Positions 43,992 to 55,883 of a stretch of DNA of 64,000 bases are shown here, in pieces. The notes below the pieces were generated by a model. That model saw nothing but the letters and a program-made list of their open reading frames with translations. It ran no database searches and had not been told where the DNA came from. A program made the translations under genes and the position numbers. Each line of letters opens with the position of its first letter. Position 1 is the first letter of the stretch. This stretch comes from Paenibacillus sp. FSL H8-0079 (lineage in GTDB: Bacteria; Bacillota; Bacilli; Paenibacillales; Paenibacillaceae), in NCBI RefSeq assembly GCF_037991315.1, contig NZ_CP150300.1:3720001-3784000 (forward strand), written 5' to 3'.

Positions 43992-45224
43992 ATGAATACT
44001 TTTGAAACGAATCTGCAGCAATATGCTGAACTGGCTGTTCAAGTCGGTGTCAATGTCCATCCTGGACAAACGCTCGTGGTTAACGCTCCAATCTCGGCAG
44101 CACATTTTGTACGACTAATCGTCAAAGCAGCTTATGGTAAAGGTGCCAAGTTGGTCAAAGTAAACTGGAGCGATGAATCCGTTACCCGTCTTCATTACGA
44201 TCTTGCCCCTGACGAGGCCTTCTCCATTGAACCGAAATGGTTTGCAGCTGAAATGACTGAACTTGTTGAAGAAGGTGCCGCTATCCTTCACGTCATCGCT
44301 GAGAATCCGGATCTGCTGAACGGTGTAGCTCAGGAACGGATTATTACTAGCCAAAAAGTGCGCGGCAAAGCGCTCGAAAAATATCGTTCTTATCAGATGG
44401 CTGACAAATTCAGCTGGTCTATTGTAGCCGTTCCTTCTCCTGAATGGGCAGCTAAAGTGTTCCCGGATCTGCCGGAAGCACAACAAGTGGATCGCCTGTG
44501 GGATGTCATTTTCAAAACAGTACGGATCGGTGAACAGGATGCTGTTGCCGAATGGAAAACCCATTTGCAAAATCTCGATTCCCGCGCTGATCTGTTGAAC
44601 AACAAAAAATACAAAAAGCTTCACTATACAGCTCCAGGCACGGACCTGACGATCGAACTTCCAGAAGGCCATATCTGGGTATCCGGTGGGAGTGTGAATG
44701 AGCAAGGACATGTCTTTATTGCCAATATGCCTACGGAAGAAGTATTCACGGCTCCGTTGAAAACTGGCGTTAACGGTACCGTGCGCAGCACGAAACCACT
44801 GAGCTACGGCGGCAACCTGATTGACGGATTCTCCCTTACATTTGAGAACGGTCGAATTGTAGATTATACCGCTGAGCAGGGACTGGATGCACTCAAAAAC
44901 CTGATCGAGATGGATGAAGGTGCACACTATCTGGGTGAAGTAGCCCTCGTTCCACATCAGTCACCAATTTCCGATACGAATATTTTGTTCTACAATACCC
45001 TGTTTGATGAAAATGCCTCCAACCATTTGGCGATCGGTAATGCTTATGCCTTCTGTCTGGAAGGTGGTAAAACGATGTCGAAAGAAGAGTTGATTGAACG
45101 TGGCATGAACTCCAGTCTCACTCATGTAGACTTCATGATTGGATCTGGAGAAATGAACATCCACGGTGTAACTTCCGAAGGCACGGAAGAGCCGATCTTC
45201 CTGCAAGGAAACTGGGCATTTTAA
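43992..45224 (+). CDS. M29-family metallo-aminopeptidase
   Basis: 410 aa, the usual length for the AmpS/aminopeptidase T family, which removes N-terminal residues using two metal ions. Seen: ELAVQVGVNVHPGQTLVVNA at the start, IELPEGHIWVSGGSVNEQG near 220, FVANMPTEEVFTAP-type block (here FIANMPTEEVFTAP) near 245, EMDEGAHYLGEVALVPHQSP near 312, and the ligand set in FDENASNHLAIGNAY and LTHVDFMIGSGEMNIHG. Cytoplasmic. Followed by a terminator and a second, closely related gene. Confidence 0.93.
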   Translation: MNTFETNLQQYAELAVQVGVNVHPGQTLVVNAPISAAHFVRLIVKAAYGKGAKLVKVNWSDESVTRLHYDLAPDEAFSIEPKWFAAEMTELVEEGAAILHVIAENPDLLNGVAQERIITSQKVRGKALEKYRSYQMADKFSWSIVAVPSPEWAAKVFPDLPEAQQVDRLWDVIFKTVRIGEQDAVAEWKTHLQNLDSRADLLNNKKYKKLHYTAPGTDLTIELPEGHIWVSGGSVNEQGHVFIANMPTEEVFTAPLKTGVNGTVRSTKPLSYGGNLIDGFSLTFENGRIVDYTAEQGLDALKNLIEMDEGAHYLGEVALVPHQSPISDTNILFYNTLFDENASNHLAIGNAYAFCLEGGKTMSKEELIERGMNSSLTHVDFMIGSGEMNIHGVTSEGTEEPIFLQGNWAF

Positions 45225-45244
45225 TTCCGTTTGATGTGATTAGG

Positions 45245-45269
45245 AGAGAGGAGATTACTCCTCTCTTTT
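45245..45269 (+). terminator. Terminator between the two aminopeptidase genes
   Basis: AGAGAGGAG, ATTA loop, CTCCTCTCT, then TTT: perfect 9-base stem. Confidence 0.75.
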
Positions 45270-45312
45270 CCTGCGTCAACAGATAAATATACAATCATTG
45301 GAGGGAACACAT

Positions 45313-46545
45313 ATGTTAAGTTTTGAACAAAAACTGGATCGTTACGCTGAACTTGCTGTGAGAGTAGGCGCTAACGTACAACCAGGGCAAGTATTTGTCA
45401 TCAGTGCAATGATTGATACCGCTGAATTCGTACGCCTGCTGGTGCGCAAAGGGTACGAAGCTGGAGCCAAGCAGGTTATTGTAAAATACGGAGATGAAAC
45501 CGTCAATCGATTGCGGTTTGAGATGGCCCCTGAGGAATCCTTCCAAGAGCCACCGAAATGGCATGCGGCGGAGCTTGAAGAACTGGCGGCCAATAATGCA
45601 GCCTTCCTGACGGTATTGTCATCCAGCCCAGACCTGATGAAAGGCATTGACCCGGAGCGAATCTCTACCCATCAGCGTACATTTGGTCAGGCGATGGCCA
45701 AGTACCGTCAGTATCAACAAGCAGATAAAATGAGCTGGACGGGTGTGGCTTGTCCTTCACCCGATTGGGCAGCCAAAGTATTCCCGGATCTGCCGGTAGC
45801 TGAGCAGGTCAGCCAGCTATGGGAAGCCATTTTCGCTGCGGTAAGAGCTGATCTGGAGGACCCTGTAGCGGCTTGGGAACAGCATATTGAACGATTGGAG
45901 ACCAAGGCCGTTGCATTGAACAACAAGAAGTATCAAGCACTGCACTTCCTCTCTCCGGGAACGGATCTGACGGTTGAGCTTCCAGAAGGACATATCTGGG
46001 CGCAGGCAGGTAGCGTGAATGAGCAAGGTACCCCTTTTGTCGCCAATATCCCGACAGAGGAAGTATACACAGCTCCAGCCAAACTTGGTGTCAGCGGTAC
46101 AGTATCCAGCACCAAACCGCTCAGTTATGGTGGAAGCATCATTGATCGTTTCTCACTCACCTTCGAGAATGGACGCATTATTGATTTTCATGCGGAGGAA
46201 GGTCAGGATACGCTCGAAAGACTCATCTCCATGGATGAAGGTTCGCATTATCTTGGCGAAGTGGCTCTGGTTCCCTTCCATTCCCCGATTTCTGAGAGCG
46301 GTATCTTGTATTACACCACGTTGTATGATGAGAATGCGTCCTGTCACCTTGCGATCGGCAGTTCCTATGCATCTAATATCCAAGGTGGCAAGACGATGTC
46401 TTCCGAAGAACTTGCCGCTCGCGGTATGAACACCAGTATCACTCATGTGGACTTCATGATGGGCTCTCCCGAGACGGACATCTACGGTATCACGGCAAAC
46501 GGCGAACGTGAAGCCATCTTCCTTAAGGGAGACTGGGCATTCTAA
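45313..46545 (+). CDS. M29-family metallo-aminopeptidase, tandem paralogue
   Basis: 410 aa, the same length as the preceding gene and alignable with it without visible gaps (ELPEGHIWAQAGSVNEQG, TEEVYTAP, MDEGSHYLGEVALVPFHSPI, YDENASCHLAIGSSY, THVDFMMGS). All metal-binding positions are kept, so both copies should be active; substrate-facing stretches differ most in the first 200 residues. ATG 45313 is preceded by TTGGAGGG. The gap between the genes holds a terminator, so the second probably has its own promoter. Confidence 0.93.
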   Translation: MLSFEQKLDRYAELAVRVGANVQPGQVFVISAMIDTAEFVRLLVRKGYEAGAKQVIVKYGDETVNRLRFEMAPEESFQEPPKWHAAELEELAANNAAFLTVLSSSPDLMKGIDPERISTHQRTFGQAMAKYRQYQQADKMSWTGVACPSPDWAAKVFPDLPVAEQVSQLWEAIFAAVRADLEDPVAAWEQHIERLETKAVALNNKKYQALHFLSPGTDLTVELPEGHIWAQAGSVNEQGTPFVANIPTEEVYTAPAKLGVSGTVSSTKPLSYGGSIIDRFSLTFENGRIIDFHAEEGQDTLERLISMDEGSHYLGEVALVPFHSPISESGILYYTTLYDENASCHLAIGSSYASNIQGGKTMSSEELAARGMNTSITHVDFMMGSPETDIYGITANGEREAIFLKGDWAF

Positions 46546-46594
46546 CGGTTACGGAAGAGCTCTCCACCGTAATGTATTTTCACTAAACAGTAGC

Positions 46595-46643
46595 AAAGGC
46601 TGTCTTGCAACCATGTGTTCATGGTTGGCAAGACAGCCTTTTA
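46595..46643 (+). terminator. Terminator after the second aminopeptidase gene
   Basis: Long stem AAAGGCTGTCTTGC with GCAAGACAGCCTTT plus an inner AACCATG/CATGGTT, then TTATT. Confidence 0.85.
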
Positions 46644-46792
46644 TTAATTTTCAGCAAACTGTCCCGAAGGCTACATTCGCTCTCCTCATCTGGTTTTTCT
46701 CGGACCAACCTCCCATTGTATCGTTTCCATATTATGTTGTAAAATGTAATGATACCAATGTTTGTGGATTGTTCACCAGAAAGGAGAACATC

Positions 46793-47383
46793 ATGGCCAA
46801 TCGGCTTCAATTACTACTCGCCTCAGATTTCCATAATTTAGGCTCTGCACTTCAAGAAGAAGTGTATTATGAATATTATAATATGGTTCATGGTCTTATC
46901 GTTTATATCATCAAGGAGCGTGCTGCAGCAGAAGATATTATTCAGGAAGCTTTTATCAAAATCATCAAAAACAAACCCATTTTCGAAGACGAGGTCAAAC
47001 TAAAAGCCTGGCTCAAGGTCGTCACGCGGAACACAGCTATTAATTATCTGAGAAAAAATAAAAATAACCGTAACCAAGTGGATACGGATAGTGTTTTTAT
47101 AGATATGGAGACGATGAATCAGACCGCAGCTTCCGTGGAAAGCATGGTAGAAACGCAGATGATGCAAGAGTCCATTGAAAATTATCTCGAACAGCTCAAA
47201 CCGGAATATCGTGTACTGGTGGAGTTACGGTGGAAAGAAGGTCTCTCCTATCGGGAGATGGCCGAACTGCTGGATACCTCCGAAGACATTGTGAAGCAAC
47301 GCTTGTTCAGAGCCCGTGGCAGTATCAAGAAGAAATTACATAAGGAATGGGGTGGAAGCATTGAGCAAAGGCAAGTCCGATAA
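46793..47383 (+). CDS. ECF-type RNA polymerase sigma factor
   Basis: 196 aa alternative sigma factor. Region 2: VHGLIVYIIKERAAAEDIIQ (about residues 32-51) and KAWLKVVTRNTAINYLRKNK (about 77-96). Region 4: LKPEYRVLVELRWKEGLSYR and MAELLDTSEDIVKQRLFRAR near 165, the HTH. ATG 46793 has AAGGAGAA just upstream. It overlaps the next gene by 23 bases, typical of sigma with its membrane regulator. Confidence 0.93.
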   Translation: MANRLQLLLASDFHNLGSALQEEVYYEYYNMVHGLIVYIIKERAAAEDIIQEAFIKIIKNKPIFEDEVKLKAWLKVVTRNTAINYLRKNKNNRNQVDTDSVFIDMETMNQTAASVESMVETQMMQESIENYLEQLKPEYRVLVELRWKEGLSYREMAELLDTSEDIVKQRLFRARGSIKKKLHKEWGGSIEQRQVR

Positions 47384-48314
47384 GCATGTGGAGCAATTCG
47401 ACTCAGATCTGGAAGACGAGTATTTCGATGCTGCGTTTGATCTGGCTTTTGATGAAGCTTTTCATCAGGCCGTCTCTGCCCCTTCCTCCTCCGATACCGA
47501 ATCCATGCAGCAATCCTGGCAGAAGGTACATAGGGAAATTAACAGAATCGGTTTACGTAAAAAAAGAATACGTACCCTGCGGCTTTCCGTTGTCGTAGCT
47601 GCTTCCGTGACCATCGGGGCCGTTATTTTCAGCCTGCCGTCTGGTACGCAAGCGGTATCCCCATTCGTGCAATCCATCAAGGATTGGGGCAATGGCATGA
47701 AATCCATTATCATCGAGGATCGTACGACCCATCTTGGGGCTGATCCGTCAACAGCCAAAACGCCTCCACCACCGGAAACCAGCTTAGACGACATTCTTAA
47801 AGTACAAGAAGAAGAAGCTCTTAATACACCTTCGTATGAGTTATCGAGCCACCTGCTTCGTCCAGTACTTGTTACAGAAGAGATTGCACGCGATGGGTTC
47901 ATGGGTGACTTTCTGTTATCCAATGCCATTCCCGAGAGATTCAACAAAGTCAAATTCGAACTCGTGCTTGATACTGAAAACCCTGTGAATCCAGACGATT
48001 ATTATGAGTCCACACAAATGAGAGTTCAATATACCAGTGAAGGCAAGAGCATAGAGGATGAGATTATCCAGTTTGATTATGTCCATATCATGCCTGGGGA
48101 GAAAATTGAAGGGGCCATGCTTCGTGATATGAGCACCGTAAAGCTGGCGGATGGCTCGGAAGCACTGATGTATATCGGCCCACCCTATAACTCCTTTCAG
48201 TGGATGATGGGTTCCAACAATATGAGTCTGTTTGGCACCCTTTCTGAAGAAGAAATGACTGCTATTGCCAACGATTTTCAAGAGCAGAAGTTTCCCGGCA
48301 GTACCCGCCGATAA
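47361..48314 (+). CDS. Membrane-anchored regulator of the ECF sigma (anti-sigma-like)
   Basis: 317 aa with one transmembrane segment, LRLSVVVAASVTIGAVIFSL (about residues 73-92): a short acidic cytoplasmic part (EQFDSDLEDEYFDAAFDLAF) and a large extracytoplasmic domain with VHIMPGEKIEGAMLRD and EALMYIGPPYNSFQWMMGSN, reminiscent of DUF4367/DUF4179 proteins that accompany sigma genes in Bacilli. The start is TTG at 47361 inside the sigma gene, with GGTGGAAG upstream. Anti-sigma function is inferred from topology and coupling. It ends 2 bases from the convergent gene. Confidence 0.75.
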   Translation: MSKGKSDKHVEQFDSDLEDEYFDAAFDLAFDEAFHQAVSAPSSSDTESMQQSWQKVHREINRIGLRKKRIRTLRLSVVVAASVTIGAVIFSLPSGTQAVSPFVQSIKDWGNGMKSIIIEDRTTHLGADPSTAKTPPPPETSLDDILKVQEEEALNTPSYELSSHLLRPVLVTEEIARDGFMGDFLLSNAIPERFNKVKFELVLDTENPVNPDDYYESTQMRVQYTSEGKSIEDEIIQFDYVHIMPGEKIEGAMLRDMSTVKLADGSEALMYIGPPYNSFQWMMGSNNMSLFGTLSEEEMTAIANDFQEQKFPGSTRR

Positions 48315-51210: not shown

Positions 51211-52791
51211 CTATGTCGACTCAATCTCCACTATGGTCTCAGAAGCCGGGTTCCAGCGCCACTTGGCTTGTTTCCCACTTTCGTTATGCAATCCACCGGT
51301 CCAGAATTCATCCTGCTTCAACATAGCCCAATCGACCTCCCCACTCAGTACCTGAATCCCGAGTTCCGTCAGCGACAGGACTCCATCACGGAATTCTTCA
51401 TCATGCTGCATGAAATTAGGGAAAGTTGTTGCACCGGTCAACTGAAGAAGGGCATGAGGTCCTTCTGTCATCCGTCTCAGATGTGCCCAGTATTCAAGAT
51501 CACCCATCCCGAGAATATGCAGCTTGTCCCCTACCTCGCGAAACAAAGGATACGGACGATCTATACCTGCTGTAATGGTCTCCAGTGTCATCTGCTCAAT
51601 GACTCCCAGGCCGTTTGATACAGATGGCATACGGGACAAGTGGGCCTTGAACGCAGCGTTTGCAAAGGGGAGCACCGAGGTGTCTGCCAACATGTAATCC
51701 AGATGATGACGGATATCAGGCGACGTATAGGCTTCCCAGAACTGTGCACCTGCTTCTAGCTCGTCCGTGTCAATCACGTGCCAACTGCCAGACAGACGTT
51801 CGATCTGCGTAGAGGTAAGCTGTCCCAGTCCTCTAAAGTGCTCAATCTCTGGATACGAGTCAATACAGAGAAGATTCAGTTTCGTATTCTGGAGTACTTG
51901 TCCTTTGAAATAATGCAATAGGTAAGATAACATCGTCTGATCATAGAGGTCGTATTCGAACCACAGGACAATCTCCTTATATTGTTGAAACGAATGCAAC
52001 TTGCGCTCAAGCTCCTCGATCTGCAAGTATTCCGTCTGCGGAATGCCCAACTGCTGCTCTAACACGGATGCCCGATTCTTCCGTTCCTTTACATCTCCCA
52101 TATCTTTGGCTACTGGTCCGAACGTGTACAATTCTCTCCATACGAGGATATCTCCCTCGATTCCACTCTCTCTTAGACGATTCGCAGCGTGATCTCCATT
52201 CATAATGTGTAACAATCCTTTTCCTCCTTCATACAAGTCACTGAACACAGAGACCAGATCCCTCACTGGCATAGAACGCTTGAGTTTGGATCGGGCATCA
52301 AACAGCCTTTTCTTTAATGCAGGTACCTTGACCCCGAGAAAATCCGATATTTCCTGCAGCGAGTATCCCTCCAAATAAAACAGTTCAACAGCAATCCGCA
52401 TCGATGACGGCAATTTTGAAATCGAATCACGCAGCGTACGATGCATTTCGTTTTGCACCGCTTGTTCTTCTGGATTATGCGCCTGATCCTCTTCCTGGAA
52501 TACATGCTCCAGCTCCTGAACGGGAATTGTGGTATGCTGCTTACGCCTTAGCCAGCGATAACACTGCCTCTCCACGATCACCTTGAACCATCCAGGAAAA
52601 GCCTTCGAGTCCTCCAGCTTGGACAGATTACCAAAGGCTTCAGTAAATGCCTCCTGCACAACATCTTCTGCCCAAAATGGTTCTCCTAAACGATTGTAGG
52701 CAACAGCAAGAGCCATCCCGCGATATTGAGACATCAGTTGTACGTAAGCTTCGGGTTCGCCCTTCATCGCTCCTTCAATCCATGACTTCAA
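51211..52791 (-). CDS. ECF sigma factor fused to a DUF1835-like domain
   Basis: 526 aa. Residues 1-175 are a complete ECF sigma: region 2 VQLMSQYRGMALAVAYNRLG and WAEDVVQEAFTEAFGNLSKL, FPGWFKVIVERQCYRWLRRK, and region 4 LPSSMRIAVELFYLEGYSLQ with EISDFLGVKVPALKKRLFDA. From about 193 a second part starts LLHIMNGDHAANRLRESGIE and GDILVWRELYTFGPV, as in DUF1835 proteins, and runs to a C-terminal region with RMPSVSNGLGVIEQ and WTGGLHN. The ordinary ECF length is about 180 aa. No anti-sigma gene is adjacent, so the extension may itself control the sigma (inference). Confidence 0.85.
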   Translation of the reverse strand: MKSWIEGAMKGEPEAYVQLMSQYRGMALAVAYNRLGEPFWAEDVVQEAFTEAFGNLSKLEDSKAFPGWFKVIVERQCYRWLRRKQHTTIPVQELEHVFQEEDQAHNPEEQAVQNEMHRTLRDSISKLPSSMRIAVELFYLEGYSLQEISDFLGVKVPALKKRLFDARSKLKRSMPVRDLVSVFSDLYEGGKGLLHIMNGDHAANRLRESGIEGDILVWRELYTFGPVAKDMGDVKERKNRASVLEQQLGIPQTEYLQIEELERKLHSFQQYKEIVLWFEYDLYDQTMLSYLLHYFKGQVLQNTKLNLLCIDSYPEIEHFRGLGQLTSTQIERLSGSWHVIDTDELEAGAQFWEAYTSPDIRHHLDYMLADTSVLPFANAAFKAHLSRMPSVSNGLGVIEQMTLETITAGIDRPYPLFREVGDKLHILGMGDLEYWAHLRRMTEGPHALLQLTGATTFPNFMQHDEEFRDGVLSLTELGIQVLSGEVDWAMLKQDEFWTGGLHNESGKQAKWRWNPASETIVEIEST

Positions 52792-53019
52792 TGCTATGGA
52801 CTCCCTTCATATAGGCATGTTTCTTGTTCTGTTCATATATAAGTGCCATGTTTTTATCAAAAGGTTACGTCTGACTCAATCATATAGTAATCATTTTGCA
52901 CACAAATTCTTATGTAAAAAGCCGCCCCGTCTGTGGAATACCTCCACATTCAGGACAGCATGTAATTCATTATGTGTTATCCATATCAAATATCAATCAA
53001 AATGATGAGGCGCCAATGA

Positions 53020-53535
53020 TCATCTGCTTGGAGCTTGTGGGTAGTTGCCTACCACGCCCGGATATTGATACAACAACGGCTCATCAAATGTAGCATAGTC
53101 GAAGTTGACCATCAACAGCATGATCCGTCTTCCTGTCTTCGGATCGCTGATGATAATATGGTCACGGCCCGCTGCTTCAATAATACCTTGGAATATGCGA
53201 GCGTTCCATTCTTTGTTGCCTTCGTATGTCATGTAGAACGTACCGAATTTCCCGAGGTTCAGACGTAAAATATTCTCAATGTACGACTGCTCAAACTGTG
53301 GCGCCGTTGTAGTGATTACTGCACCCGTTGGTGTCATTGGGCTTCCACTGGATACGAGTGGGGGTACACTTGTGGAGCTTGGGGATACCATTCCTGGTGT
53401 TACTGACATGGCAGGCATTCCGTTACCAATTTTGTAAGACGTACCTTGAACCTGAGAATTGGCTTGTTGACCTAATACGGAATTCGCTTGCTGACCCAAC
53501 GTTTGAGTCGTTGGTTGATAAGGCTGATTAATCAT
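53020..53535 (-). CDS. gerQ: Spore coat / germination protein GerQ
   Basis: 171 aa (B. subtilis GerQ about 180). The C-terminal half FEQSYIENILRLNLGKFGTF ... GNKEWNARIFQGIIEAAGRD ... DPKTGRRIMLLMVNFDYATF is the conserved GerQ domain. The N-terminal half is low-complexity and Gln-rich (QPYQPTTQTLGQQANSVLGQ), and in B. subtilis such residues are cross-linked by transglutaminase. GerQ is needed to localise CwlJ in the coat. ATG 53535 has GGGGAGG upstream. It lies 19 bases after cwlJ on the same strand, so the two form an operon. Confidence 0.93.
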   Translation of the reverse strand: MINQPYQPTTQTLGQQANSVLGQQANSQVQGTSYKIGNGMPAMSVTPGMVSPSSTSVPPLVSSGSPMTPTGAVITTTAPQFEQSYIENILRLNLGKFGTFYMTYEGNKEWNARIFQGIIEAAGRDHIIISDPKTGRRIMLLMVNFDYATFDEPLLYQYPGVVGNYPQAPSR

Positions 53536-53554
53536 GGTGATTCCTCCCCAAATT

Positions 53555-53977
53555 TTAATATACTTCCGGACAGTCTTCGCCTGAAGGACTGAAGAAACAA
53601 TGCGCTTTAAAACGTCCTGTATTTTGCTGGTCATACCACGTTGCCGGACACTCGGCCACAGGTCGGAAGAACCACAATGAATTGCTGGCTGGCCAGAAAC
53701 GCTCTCCATTGATCACCCGTTGTGCCAGACGAATCTCGGACTGTCTTGCCCGCTGGTAGAAGTAACCCTTCTGTGTGGACTCATAGCCTCCTGGATTCTG
53801 GAATACCATACGATTGATGTCGCGAATATCCTTAAAGTCCAGACAATCTACCAGTACCCGGTTCACACTTACATTGCCCACAAGCAACATACCCTGTTCG
53901 CCGTCACCTTCAGCCTCCGCCCTCATCAGCCTAGCCAATAGCTTGACGTCCTCTGAGTTGGCTTTAATAACAGCCAT
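53555..53977 (-). CDS. cwlJ: Spore cortex-lytic enzyme CwlJ
   Basis: 140 aa (B. subtilis CwlJ 142). Hydrolase_2 (SleB/CwlJ) fold: LARLMRAEAEGDGEQGMLLV near residue 14 contains the catalytic Glu, then GNVSVNRVLVDCLDF and NGERFWPASNSLWFFRP. It hydrolyses spore cortex during Ca-dipicolinate-triggered germination and works with GerQ, its downstream neighbour. ATG 53977 has GGGAGG 9 bases before it; a longer open frame to 54262 has no such signal. Confidence 0.95.
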   Translation of the reverse strand: MAVIKANSEDVKLLARLMRAEAEGDGEQGMLLVGNVSVNRVLVDCLDFKDIRDINRMVFQNPGGYESTQKGYFYQRARQSEIRLAQRVINGERFWPASNSLWFFRPVAECPATWYDQQNTGRFKAHCFFSPSGEDCPEVY

Positions 53978-54066
53978 ATTCTGTTTCCTCCCTTGTTTCA
54001 GCTGTTCATCTCCGTACATCGTATTGTGCAGGAGCCCATTCGGTGACACGATTCCATCTTTTTTCC

Positions 54067-54103
54067 ATAAAAAAAAGCCCGGAACCTCACCCAAGGTGAA
54101 GTC
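54067..54103 (-). terminator. Terminator after the tandem-barrel protein gene
   Basis: TCACC/GGTGA core stem with flanking pairs (54081-54103), followed on the minus strand by a run of eight T. Confidence 0.7.
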
Positions 54104-54137
54104 CCAAAGCAACTTATTTCTTATATTACTCGCCTGT

Positions 54138-55883
54138 TCAGGGCTTGGCTTCAATCCAATAATCATAGGCATGTACAATATTGCCCTGGTACGCCTGATA
54201 TTCGGCCAGCAGATCGGGAAGCTTAGCAAGCTGAAGTTCCATCTCCGCTGCCCCCTTCTCATAAAATGAAATATGAGGACCTTCGTGGTTCTCCTTCATT
54301 TCTACCGAAATCATCAACCTTTTCCCTAAACGATCGGCGATCTCCATCTCCTGACTCACAACAGCAGCGATCCCATTGGAACCTTCGGCGTTGTTACGGA
54401 AAGCCATCAGTGACACATGATCGAGTGTACCAATCATAAATTCCGTCACAGACATGTCTTTACCCGGCAGCGGGAAGGTATCCAGCCATATGGCAAGATC
54501 TGCACTTGTTTCGAGATCACTGTCCTTCTTCGTTTCTTCCTGGAAAAATGTAATGTTCGCAGCCCATTCGGTCAACAGGGTATTCCGATTGTTCTCCCAG
54601 TCCGGCAAGGTATAAGGCTCAATATCCAGATGGATGCCTTGAAATTGTTCATCCGGCTCAGATTCAGCATTATAATTTTTCACATAATCAATCAAGCGCT
54701 GAATCCTTGGACGATTTTCCTTCTTGCCCCAGATCGGGTGTCCACCCATCGCATGAATTTCAATACCTTGAGCTCTGGCTCGTTTCACAAAACTGCGGTA
54801 ACTGGAATAGGGTTGATCCAGATCCAAGCGGACATACAACCAGTTAATATTTTGCTCTCTCGCAAACGCTAAGATGTGCTCCCCTCCGTCGTTCGTCACC
54901 TGAGAGGCCTCCCAGATATACGTTCCCCGAATCTCTGGCTGGTTGGATGGAATCTCCGGTGATGGCAGTTCCGACGGCTCCAGTTGTCCCCAGTATACAA
55001 TGTCATGTACAGCAGAACCGGCGTAGGAAGTATGCTCGCTGAATGCGGAAGCAACTTCTTCAATAACACTTTCCAGCTGCGCTGCCCCTTTACCGGCAAA
55101 TGTCGTGAACTCCTCGCCAGGCATGGGCTTGGTATTCAACCCAACCGTGACGCTCGCATTGCTGGCATCAGCCCAGTTCAGTTCCTGTTCAATTAAACGT
55201 ATGATGCCATTGTTTCCTTGCGCATTATCACGGTAAGCTAGTAAAGTGACATGATCCACTTGTTCAATAAACCAACGTGACAATGGTTCGTTATCTGCAT
55301 CCTCAGAAGTTCTATTCCCTGTGACGGTGTACGAATCCAGCCAAAATGGCAGGTCAACATTCACAGCAACAGCGCCACCCTGTCTCACTTGCTCAAATAA
55401 CAGATTCATATTGGCCACCCAGGATTGAACCAATGGCTTGGCATCTTCTTTCCAGGCTGGTAACACGTAGGGCTTGATATCCAGATGTATGGCATCAAAT
55501 CGCTCATTGGGCTCAGCTGCCTGATTGTAGTCACTTACCCACGAGGCTAACCTAAGCATGGGGCCTTCACGCCCACTGACCGCCCAGGATGGATCGCCTC
55601 CCAGCGCTTCAACCGCAATACCTGCACGGCTTGCTTTGGCTATAAACGTCTGGTATACCTCCTTGGACAGCGTCATGTCTACATTCACGTACAGCCTGTT
55701 TATCTTATGTTTAGCTGCATTGGCCAGCAGCTCATCTCCGTTGCTAACAGACTGCGCCTGCCATACCCAGGCCGCCCGTATATCCGCGCCGTCTGCTTCA
55801 GCAGGTGACTCATTCCCTATCATTATCATCCCTCCGATCAGCAGTAACAGCCAAAATACCTTCCGGGATTGTTTCCCGAACAT
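54138..55883 (-). CDS. Secreted protein with two tandem TIM-barrel-like halves
   Basis: 581 aa. Signal peptide about 1-31 (VFWLLLLIGGMIMI). Residues about 35-300 and 318-580 are two versions of one domain: RAAWVWQAQSVSNGDELLAN against RGTYIWEASQVTNDGGEHIL, INRLYVNVDM against INWLYVRLDL, FDAIHLDIKPYVLPAW against FQGIHLDIEPYTLPDW, DHVTLLAYRDNAQGNNGI against DHVSLMAFRNNAEGSNGI. The LDIxPY strand resembles the catalytic DxE-type strand of glycosidase barrels; the first half has Lys137 where the second has Glu422. Substrate unknown. Upstream of cwlJ but separated from it by a terminator. GGAGGGAG precedes the ATG. Confidence 0.8.
   Translation of the reverse strand: MFGKQSRKVFWLLLLIGGMIMIGNESPAEADGADIRAAWVWQAQSVSNGDELLANAAKHKINRLYVNVDMTLSKEVYQTFIAKASRAGIAVEALGGDPSWAVSGREGPMLRLASWVSDYNQAAEPNERFDAIHLDIKPYVLPAWKEDAKPLVQSWVANMNLLFEQVRQGGAVAVNVDLPFWLDSYTVTGNRTSEDADNEPLSRWFIEQVDHVTLLAYRDNAQGNNGIIRLIEQELNWADASNASVTVGLNTKPMPGEEFTTFAGKGAAQLESVIEEVASAFSEHTSYAGSAVHDIVYWGQLEPSELPSPEIPSNQPEIRGTYIWEASQVTNDGGEHILAFAREQNINWLYVRLDLDQPYSSYRSFVKRARAQGIEIHAMGGHPIWGKKENRPRIQRLIDYVKNYNAESEPDEQFQGIHLDIEPYTLPDWENNRNTLLTEWAANITFFQEETKKDSDLETSADLAIWLDTFPLPGKDMSVTEFMIGTLDHVSLMAFRNNAEGSNGIAAVVSQEMEIADRLGKRLMISVEMKENHEGPHISFYEKGAAEMELQLAKLPDLLAEYQAYQGNIVHAYDYWIEAKP

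Follow-up and report, generated by a model that had tools for sequence, protein, structure and literature searches.

Does an ECF sigma factor with a DUF1835 domain at its C terminus simply carry its own regulator, or does the fused part also have a job of its own? The question is raised by a gene at positions 51211 to 52791 (minus strand) of the window, the 64,000-nucleotide stretch of the Paenibacillus sp. FSL H8-0079 genome that was analyzed. It encodes a full-length sigma-extension protein of 526 aa in one frame from a TTG start at 52791. Pfam places Sigma70_r2 at residues 19 to 86 (E = 1.2e-12), Sigma70_r4_2 at residues 119 to 170 (E = 8.1e-11), and DUF1835 (PF08874; 51898 to 52212, minus strand) at residues 194 to 298 (E = 2.9e-9; 37.5 bits versus a curated cutoff of 21.1). 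The sigma half (residues 1 to 180; 52252 to 52791, minus strand) has the architecture of an ECF sigma factor, sigma2 and sigma4 without sigma3. A sequence-only reading had described an ECF sigma fused to a DUF1835-like extension and had named a profile search as the check; that search bears out the fusion, and a homologue search finds it to be widespread, with 450 homologues at E ≤ 1e-5. The 120 homologues listed are 499 to 549 aa long and 118 of them have a precomputed DUF1835 hit, and so the fusion is neither chance nor an assembly error. It is conserved in Paenibacillus, Saccharibacillus, Cohnella, Gorillibacterium, and Fontibacillus, and the nearest named relatives are from Paenibacillus sp. 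SZ31 (95%) and Paenibacillus sp. FSL M8-0212 (90%). The earlier figure of about 330 DUF1835-like residues holds for 105 of them, but the last 228 residues have no Pfam match. DUF3658, the usual partner of DUF1835, was looked for in the extension and not found, and there is no Pfam match to a GHKL ATPase, SnoaL, or TPR domain within the 526 aa.

The reading that we prefer, to which we assign a probability of roughly 0.62, is that of a self-activating gene with two products, the extension being a regulator in cis that is also active in trans. Together with RNA polymerase, the sigma half would transcribe mainly its own gene from its own promoter; one messenger would give both the full-length protein and, from an inner start, the free extension; the extension would control, or be needed by, the sigma in cis; and the free extension would be a selected effector in trans. 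At the level of sequence, the locus joins in one gene an ECF sigma fused in frame to a 334-aa extension, a conserved ECF-type promoter, and a linker with a conserved ribosome site and start codon.

The direct flanks of the gene encode a CNNM/CorC transporter on one side and GerQ on the other, with no anti-sigma gene on either. The earlier statement that none is present stands for these flanks, but a second ECF sigma gene (46508 to 47383, plus strand) lies about 3 kb away and overlaps a gene (47316 to 48314, plus strand) whose product has no Pfam hit and, by eye, a single transmembrane segment; these two look like an ordinary sigma/anti-sigma pair of their own. Conserved neighbors were considered as partners and rejected, as the commonest neighbor cluster, the gene itself aside, occurs at 9 of 41 loci. 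The surroundings hold several other genes of note. Just upstream, at 53020 to 54262 (minus strand), GerQ and a cell wall hydrolase gene (Hydrolase_2, CwlJ/SleB-like) are probably a spore germination pair. The 581-aa protein encoded at 54138 to 55883 (minus strand) has no Pfam hit, and its halves appear by eye to be copies of one domain. At 43992 to 46545 (plus strand), two similar adjacent genes of about 410 aa each stand in tandem and resemble aminopeptidase paralogues.

A putative autopromoter lies upstream of the gene at 52842 to 52868 (minus strand), reading GTAACC (52868 to 52863), a spacer of 15 nt, and GGCACT (52847 to 52842). The element conserved upstream of the fused genes is GTAACCTTT-N12-GGCACTT; an AAC within the -35 element is usual for ECF sigma factors. 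When the best upstream site of each of 106 distinct fused genes was compared with GTAACCTT-N13-GGCACT, 80 had no mismatch, 23 had one, 2 had two, and 1 had five. The last amounts to no promoter, leaving a site with at most two mismatches before 105 of the 106 genes, in all of which GTAACC is invariant and the spacer is free. Across 295 genomes of the family, the exact site stands 35 to 104 nt (median, 49) before the sigma match in 81 of the 105 sigma genes, and elsewhere it occurs 11 times in the 105 genomes with the sigma and 24 times in the other 190. At least 3 of these 24 (in G279, G130, and G153) precede a stand-alone or decayed copy of the same gene; in the decayed copies (L114 in G130 and L115 in G153), the promoter leads into the beginning of the sigma half, after which just the end of the extension remains. 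Since the site stands before 105 of the 106 fused genes, while its other occurrences are close to chance level, the promoter appears to serve self-activation of the fused gene.

Nothing similar was seen for a wider regulon in this genome, a single 6.7-Mb contig. With up to two mismatches it contains 34 sites, versus 84 for the reversed pattern. Inspection covered 30 of the 34, of which 28 lie inside open frames of at least 90 aa and 2 are intergenic, namely the gene's own promoter and a two-mismatch site 56 nt before an HU gene. We rejected a wider regulon on these counts. The HU gene was also rejected as a target; among 30 same-genus loci compared by eye, close relatives retain some of the element, but in others the -35-like or -10-like part is variable or absent.

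These counts bear on the alternative in which the free extension is the effector and the sigma amplifies its own gene alone, has no further targets, and is not regulated by the extension. The only exact site common in the genomes is the gene's own, as this alternative would have it. Yet 9 of the 11 extra exact sites in genomes with the sigma occupy one syntenic place, in nine same-genus genomes (L105 to L113; e.g., near position 3044 of L113), where the hexamers are kept and the spacer has diverged. By gene names read from the sequence, this second site falls between the 3′ end of an oppA-like gene and a D-alanyl-D-alanine-carboxypeptidase-like gene and points back into oppA. An antisense or small RNA is a possible product. 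The second site is missing from the genome studied here. Weaker promoters are also conceivable, and the conserved one may be merely the strongest among weaker, unrecognized sites. Furthermore, a self-amplifying sigma factor without regulation would be expected to be harmful. We regard this alternative as possible but somewhat unlikely.

The case for a second product of the fused gene comes from the linker. A Shine-Dalgarno sequence, AAGGAGG (52223 to 52229, minus strand), stands 7 nt before a TTG codon at residue 193 (52213 to 52215, minus strand), from which translation would give a free extension of 334 aa (51211 to 52215, minus strand), consisting of the Toprim-like half that matches DUF1835 followed by a winged-helix-like half. 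Codon 193 is of a start type in all 106 fused genes, down to 43% identity: ATG in 81, TTG in 13, and GTG in 12. Where the residue is leucine the codon is TTG in 13 of 13 genes, versus a background of 1381 of 6712 (0.21), and where it is valine the codon is GTG in 12 of 12, versus 1088 of 3347 (0.33). Codon choice just upstream is similarly biased at G189, which is GGA in 87 of 104 genes versus 15 to 53% at 26 other glycine positions, but E188 (GAA in 85 of 98) is hardly above the best other glutamate (range, 26 to 83%). The mean match to the Shine-Dalgarno sequence is 6.25 nt, versus 4.78 nt when synonymous codons are redrawn from each gene's own usage; it exceeds the gene's own expectation in 89 of 106 genes and is no better than this null in 17, and the eight lowest matches shown read GAAGGGGG. 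In 73 of 106 genes, a start codon with a match of at least 6 nt lies at residue 193; the next commonest place accounts for 15. The 106 genes are related and represent 82 distinct 24-nt contexts, and these counts are therefore of nonindependent events. A purine-rich run resembling a ribosome site is retained where the residues differ (L055, L070, and L229). With a Shine-Dalgarno sequence and a start codon inside the linker, the extension is probably also made alone.

Extensions without the sigma are also found as genes in their own right. Of 295 family genomes, 173 have a match to the extension (E ≤ 1e-10) and 105 have a single one to the sigma half (E ≤ 1e-28). In 103 of these 105, the open frame that holds the sigma is 510 aa or longer (G283 among them, with a stop inside the sigma match), and in the other two the sigma lies in shorter, apparently broken frames (411 aa in G263 and 328 aa in G293) with extension sequence following. 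No free gene for the sigma half was found in the 295 genomes, and in 51 genomes searched for it, matches of at least 45% occur in five (G000, G246, G217, G211, and G283), all at fused genes. For the extension, 20 stand-alone loci were taken from the shorter-frame matches; a search of the 3 to 4 kb on either side found the sigma half at none of them, with one locus (L046) cut by a contig end. All 20 have ATG at the codon corresponding to residue 193, and the residues before it are mostly ...EGGxxM, in which EGG is the Shine-Dalgarno sequence read in frame; the fused genes keep this pattern.

Stand-alone and fused forms interleave in a tree of 69 extensions (20 stand-alone and 49 fused), a chosen part of the sequences; the bootstrap of this tree had not settled. 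The tree requires 15 changes of state, at least 8 of them forced by starred branches, and the label is hardly clustered, since equally few changes suffice in 48 to 51 of 500 shuffles. Among the stand-alone copies, L033 shares 95% DNA identity with a fused gene of Paenibacillus radicis (L195) and is about 400 bp shorter in the sigma part, and its extension frame, ribosome site, and ATG are all intact. On its branch there are 13 synonymous and 6 nonsynonymous codon changes, and seven pairs of extensions in which one or both members stand alone give dN/dS values of 0.09 to 0.24. Judged by these substitutions, the stand-alone extensions look as if they are under purifying selection. That the extension is kept alone after repeated loss of the sigma suggests that it has a selected job of its own.

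These observations also weigh on the plain one-component alternative, in which the extension, as in ECF41 or ECF42, serves only to sense a ligand and to inhibit or license the sigma, the internal site is left over from the fusion, and the proteins that stand alone are unconnected with it. Precedent is on its side. Regulatory extensions at the N or C terminus have been described for ECF sigma factors, in members of at least 26 groups, and ECF41, ECF42, and ECF238 (CorE) likewise have a C-terminal extension in place of an anti-sigma factor (PMC8999054). That the sigma half was not found free in the 295 genomes also suits a sigma dependent on its own extension, and it is from this that we draw cis control within our preferred reading as well. 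However, the start codon kept in all 106 genes, the ribosome-site-like run kept despite residue changes, and the apparent selection on stand-alone extensions argue against a relic, and we consider this alternative distinctly unlikely. The view of a one-component sigma thus stands as far as the fusion, the lack of an adjacent anti-sigma gene, and the failure to find a free sigma half are concerned. Its other part, an extension that is merely a sensor or inhibitor, does not fit with a predicted topoisomerase-like fold, an internal ribosome site of its own, and occurrence elsewhere without such a sigma.

The extensions of ECF41, ECF42, and ECF238 are SnoaL-like, TPR-rich, or cysteine-rich (PMC8999054), whereas that of the fused gene has a predicted type IIA topoisomerase-like core and its own start codon. 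A closer likeness is with ECF264 of the classification of Casas-Pastor et al. (2021), listed among the groups with regulatory extensions and no anti-sigma factor, whose model member is WP_037286607.1 of Saccharibacillus sacchari (PMC8999054, Table 2). The fused sigma probably belongs to this group, since S. sacchari has a fusion (P0124) of the same kind as the 526-aa protein; the likeness is by group listing and species. The sequence-only reading had allowed that the fusion might be a known class with described control. A class is indeed listed, but Table 2 of the review files it under "Others" without a mechanism (PMC8999054).

The fold of the extension was examined by structure prediction. 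The model (pLDDT, 92) has the Toprim and winged-helix core of type IIA topoisomerases; all 50 of the matches listed by VIA-align are type IIA enzymes, with Z scores up to 12.5, and the predicted likeness spans about 295 of the 334 residues. Profile comparisons are suggestive for the Toprim half. An hhalign comparison with a longer cut of GyrB scored 29.1, versus a maximum of 26.8 and a mean of 14.0 in 100 column shuffles, at a probability of 19.8. By default, single motifs of 15 to 20 columns aligned, and the three Toprim motifs were aligned together and in order solely on permissive realignment (mact, 0.05). A first comparison with a Toprim-only cut of 29 GyrB sequences gave 20 columns at a probability of 5.6, and the GyrB tail gave 17 columns at 34.6. 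The winged-helix half had no significant profile match to GyrA (score, 13.5; shuffle mean, 13.2), and its assignment therefore rests on the model. Among solved structures, a sequence search with the fused protein matched the sigma part alone and not the extension, and for the extension profile by itself the sole match was to a designed protein and weak (E = 0.45). Because the hhalign probabilities are low, it is the fold evidence that carries the claim of a topoisomerase-like core.

The order of Toprim and then winged helix, together with the predicted fold, resembles that of GyrB/GyrA, ParE/ParC, and topoisomerase II, but the extension differs from these enzymes in having no ATPase domain, in its active-site residues, and in being fused to a sigma factor. 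In the alignment, asparagine takes the place of the Toprim glutamate in all 126 genes (106 fused and 20 stand-alone), and the position of the DxD motif reads ExD in all of them. The glutamate is thus predicted, at the level of the model, to be replaced. The catalytic tyrosine probably is too, its position being leucine in a forced GyrA alignment that is not significant. It could be argued that the extension is nevertheless catalytic, as a nuclease or topoisomerase-like enzyme whose active-site residues have changed, since E279, D281, and D284 are invariant in all 126 genes and make metal binding possible, but the asparagine at the aligned glutamate position, the leucine that the forced alignment puts at the tyrosine, and the lack of a Pfam match to an ATPase domain make this improbable. 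A shared fold says nothing of function.

The same genome encodes a paralogue with DUF1835 and DUF3658 (C1:6370785-6371159; L001, 1027 to 2109, minus strand), a type of protein that shares DUF1835 with the fused extension but carries DUF3658, which was not found in the extension. The DUF1835-DUF3658 family profile matches solely the Toprim half of the extension (hhalign probability, 93.9; E = 1.6e-7), and the wider DUF1835 family may therefore share the Toprim-like fold. None of the 50 such relatives found has a sigma domain in the precomputed Pfam lists.

The least probable alternative, that the conserved promoter is read by another sigma factor while the fused sigma acts elsewhere, could draw on 2 of the 20 stand-alone genes that keep the site no more than 60 nt upstream of the extension match (exact in L048 and with one mismatch in L037) in genomes where no close sigma was found, but we consider it very improbable given the AAC of the -35 element and the absence of the site, at up to three mismatches within 350 nt, from the other 18 (L038 retaining a -35-like piece), versus its presence before 105 of 106 fused genes.

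For the self-activating, two-product gene, some further steps can be outlined more tentatively. The extension might bind DNA or meet gyrase or topoisomerase IV as a catalytically dead topoisomerase-like module, probably as a dimer on DNA or on a topoisomerase subunit, by analogy with the homodimeric topoisomerase core. Pairing of the free extension with the full-length form might also set the gain of the loop. A bolder version, in which a dead type IIA DNA gate senses either DNA topology or how gyrase is faring and thereby switches the sigma and its self-amplifying loop, with the free copies as an effector on DNA or gyrase, we hold to be rather doubtful.

A search for ECF sigma factors, Paenibacillus, and C-terminal extensions led to the review cited above (PMC8999054), and what was found for ECF sigma factors with Toprim was unrelated by title. 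Among the matches listed for internal translation initiation and sigma factors, none was by title on a sigma factor's own isoforms. In the literature searched, where most subscription journals are missing, no paper linking DUF1835 to a sigma factor and no mention of DUF3658 were found, and DUF1835 came up for a gene of Burkholderia next to the paa cluster. Nor was any mention found there of the topoisomerase fold, the inner start, or the self-only promoter.

The finding gives DUF1835, a family rarely named in the literature searched, a likely fold and ancestry, and it describes a sigma factor joined to a predicted topoisomerase-like core. The sigma gene has a conserved second start, by which a regulator and a free domain can come from one messenger, and its clear promoter opens the whole loop to direct testing. 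Should the extension respond to DNA topology, supercoiling and sigma activity would be linked directly, and, if the reading as a dead DNA gate is true, promoter choice would be coupled directly to DNA topology within one polypeptide.
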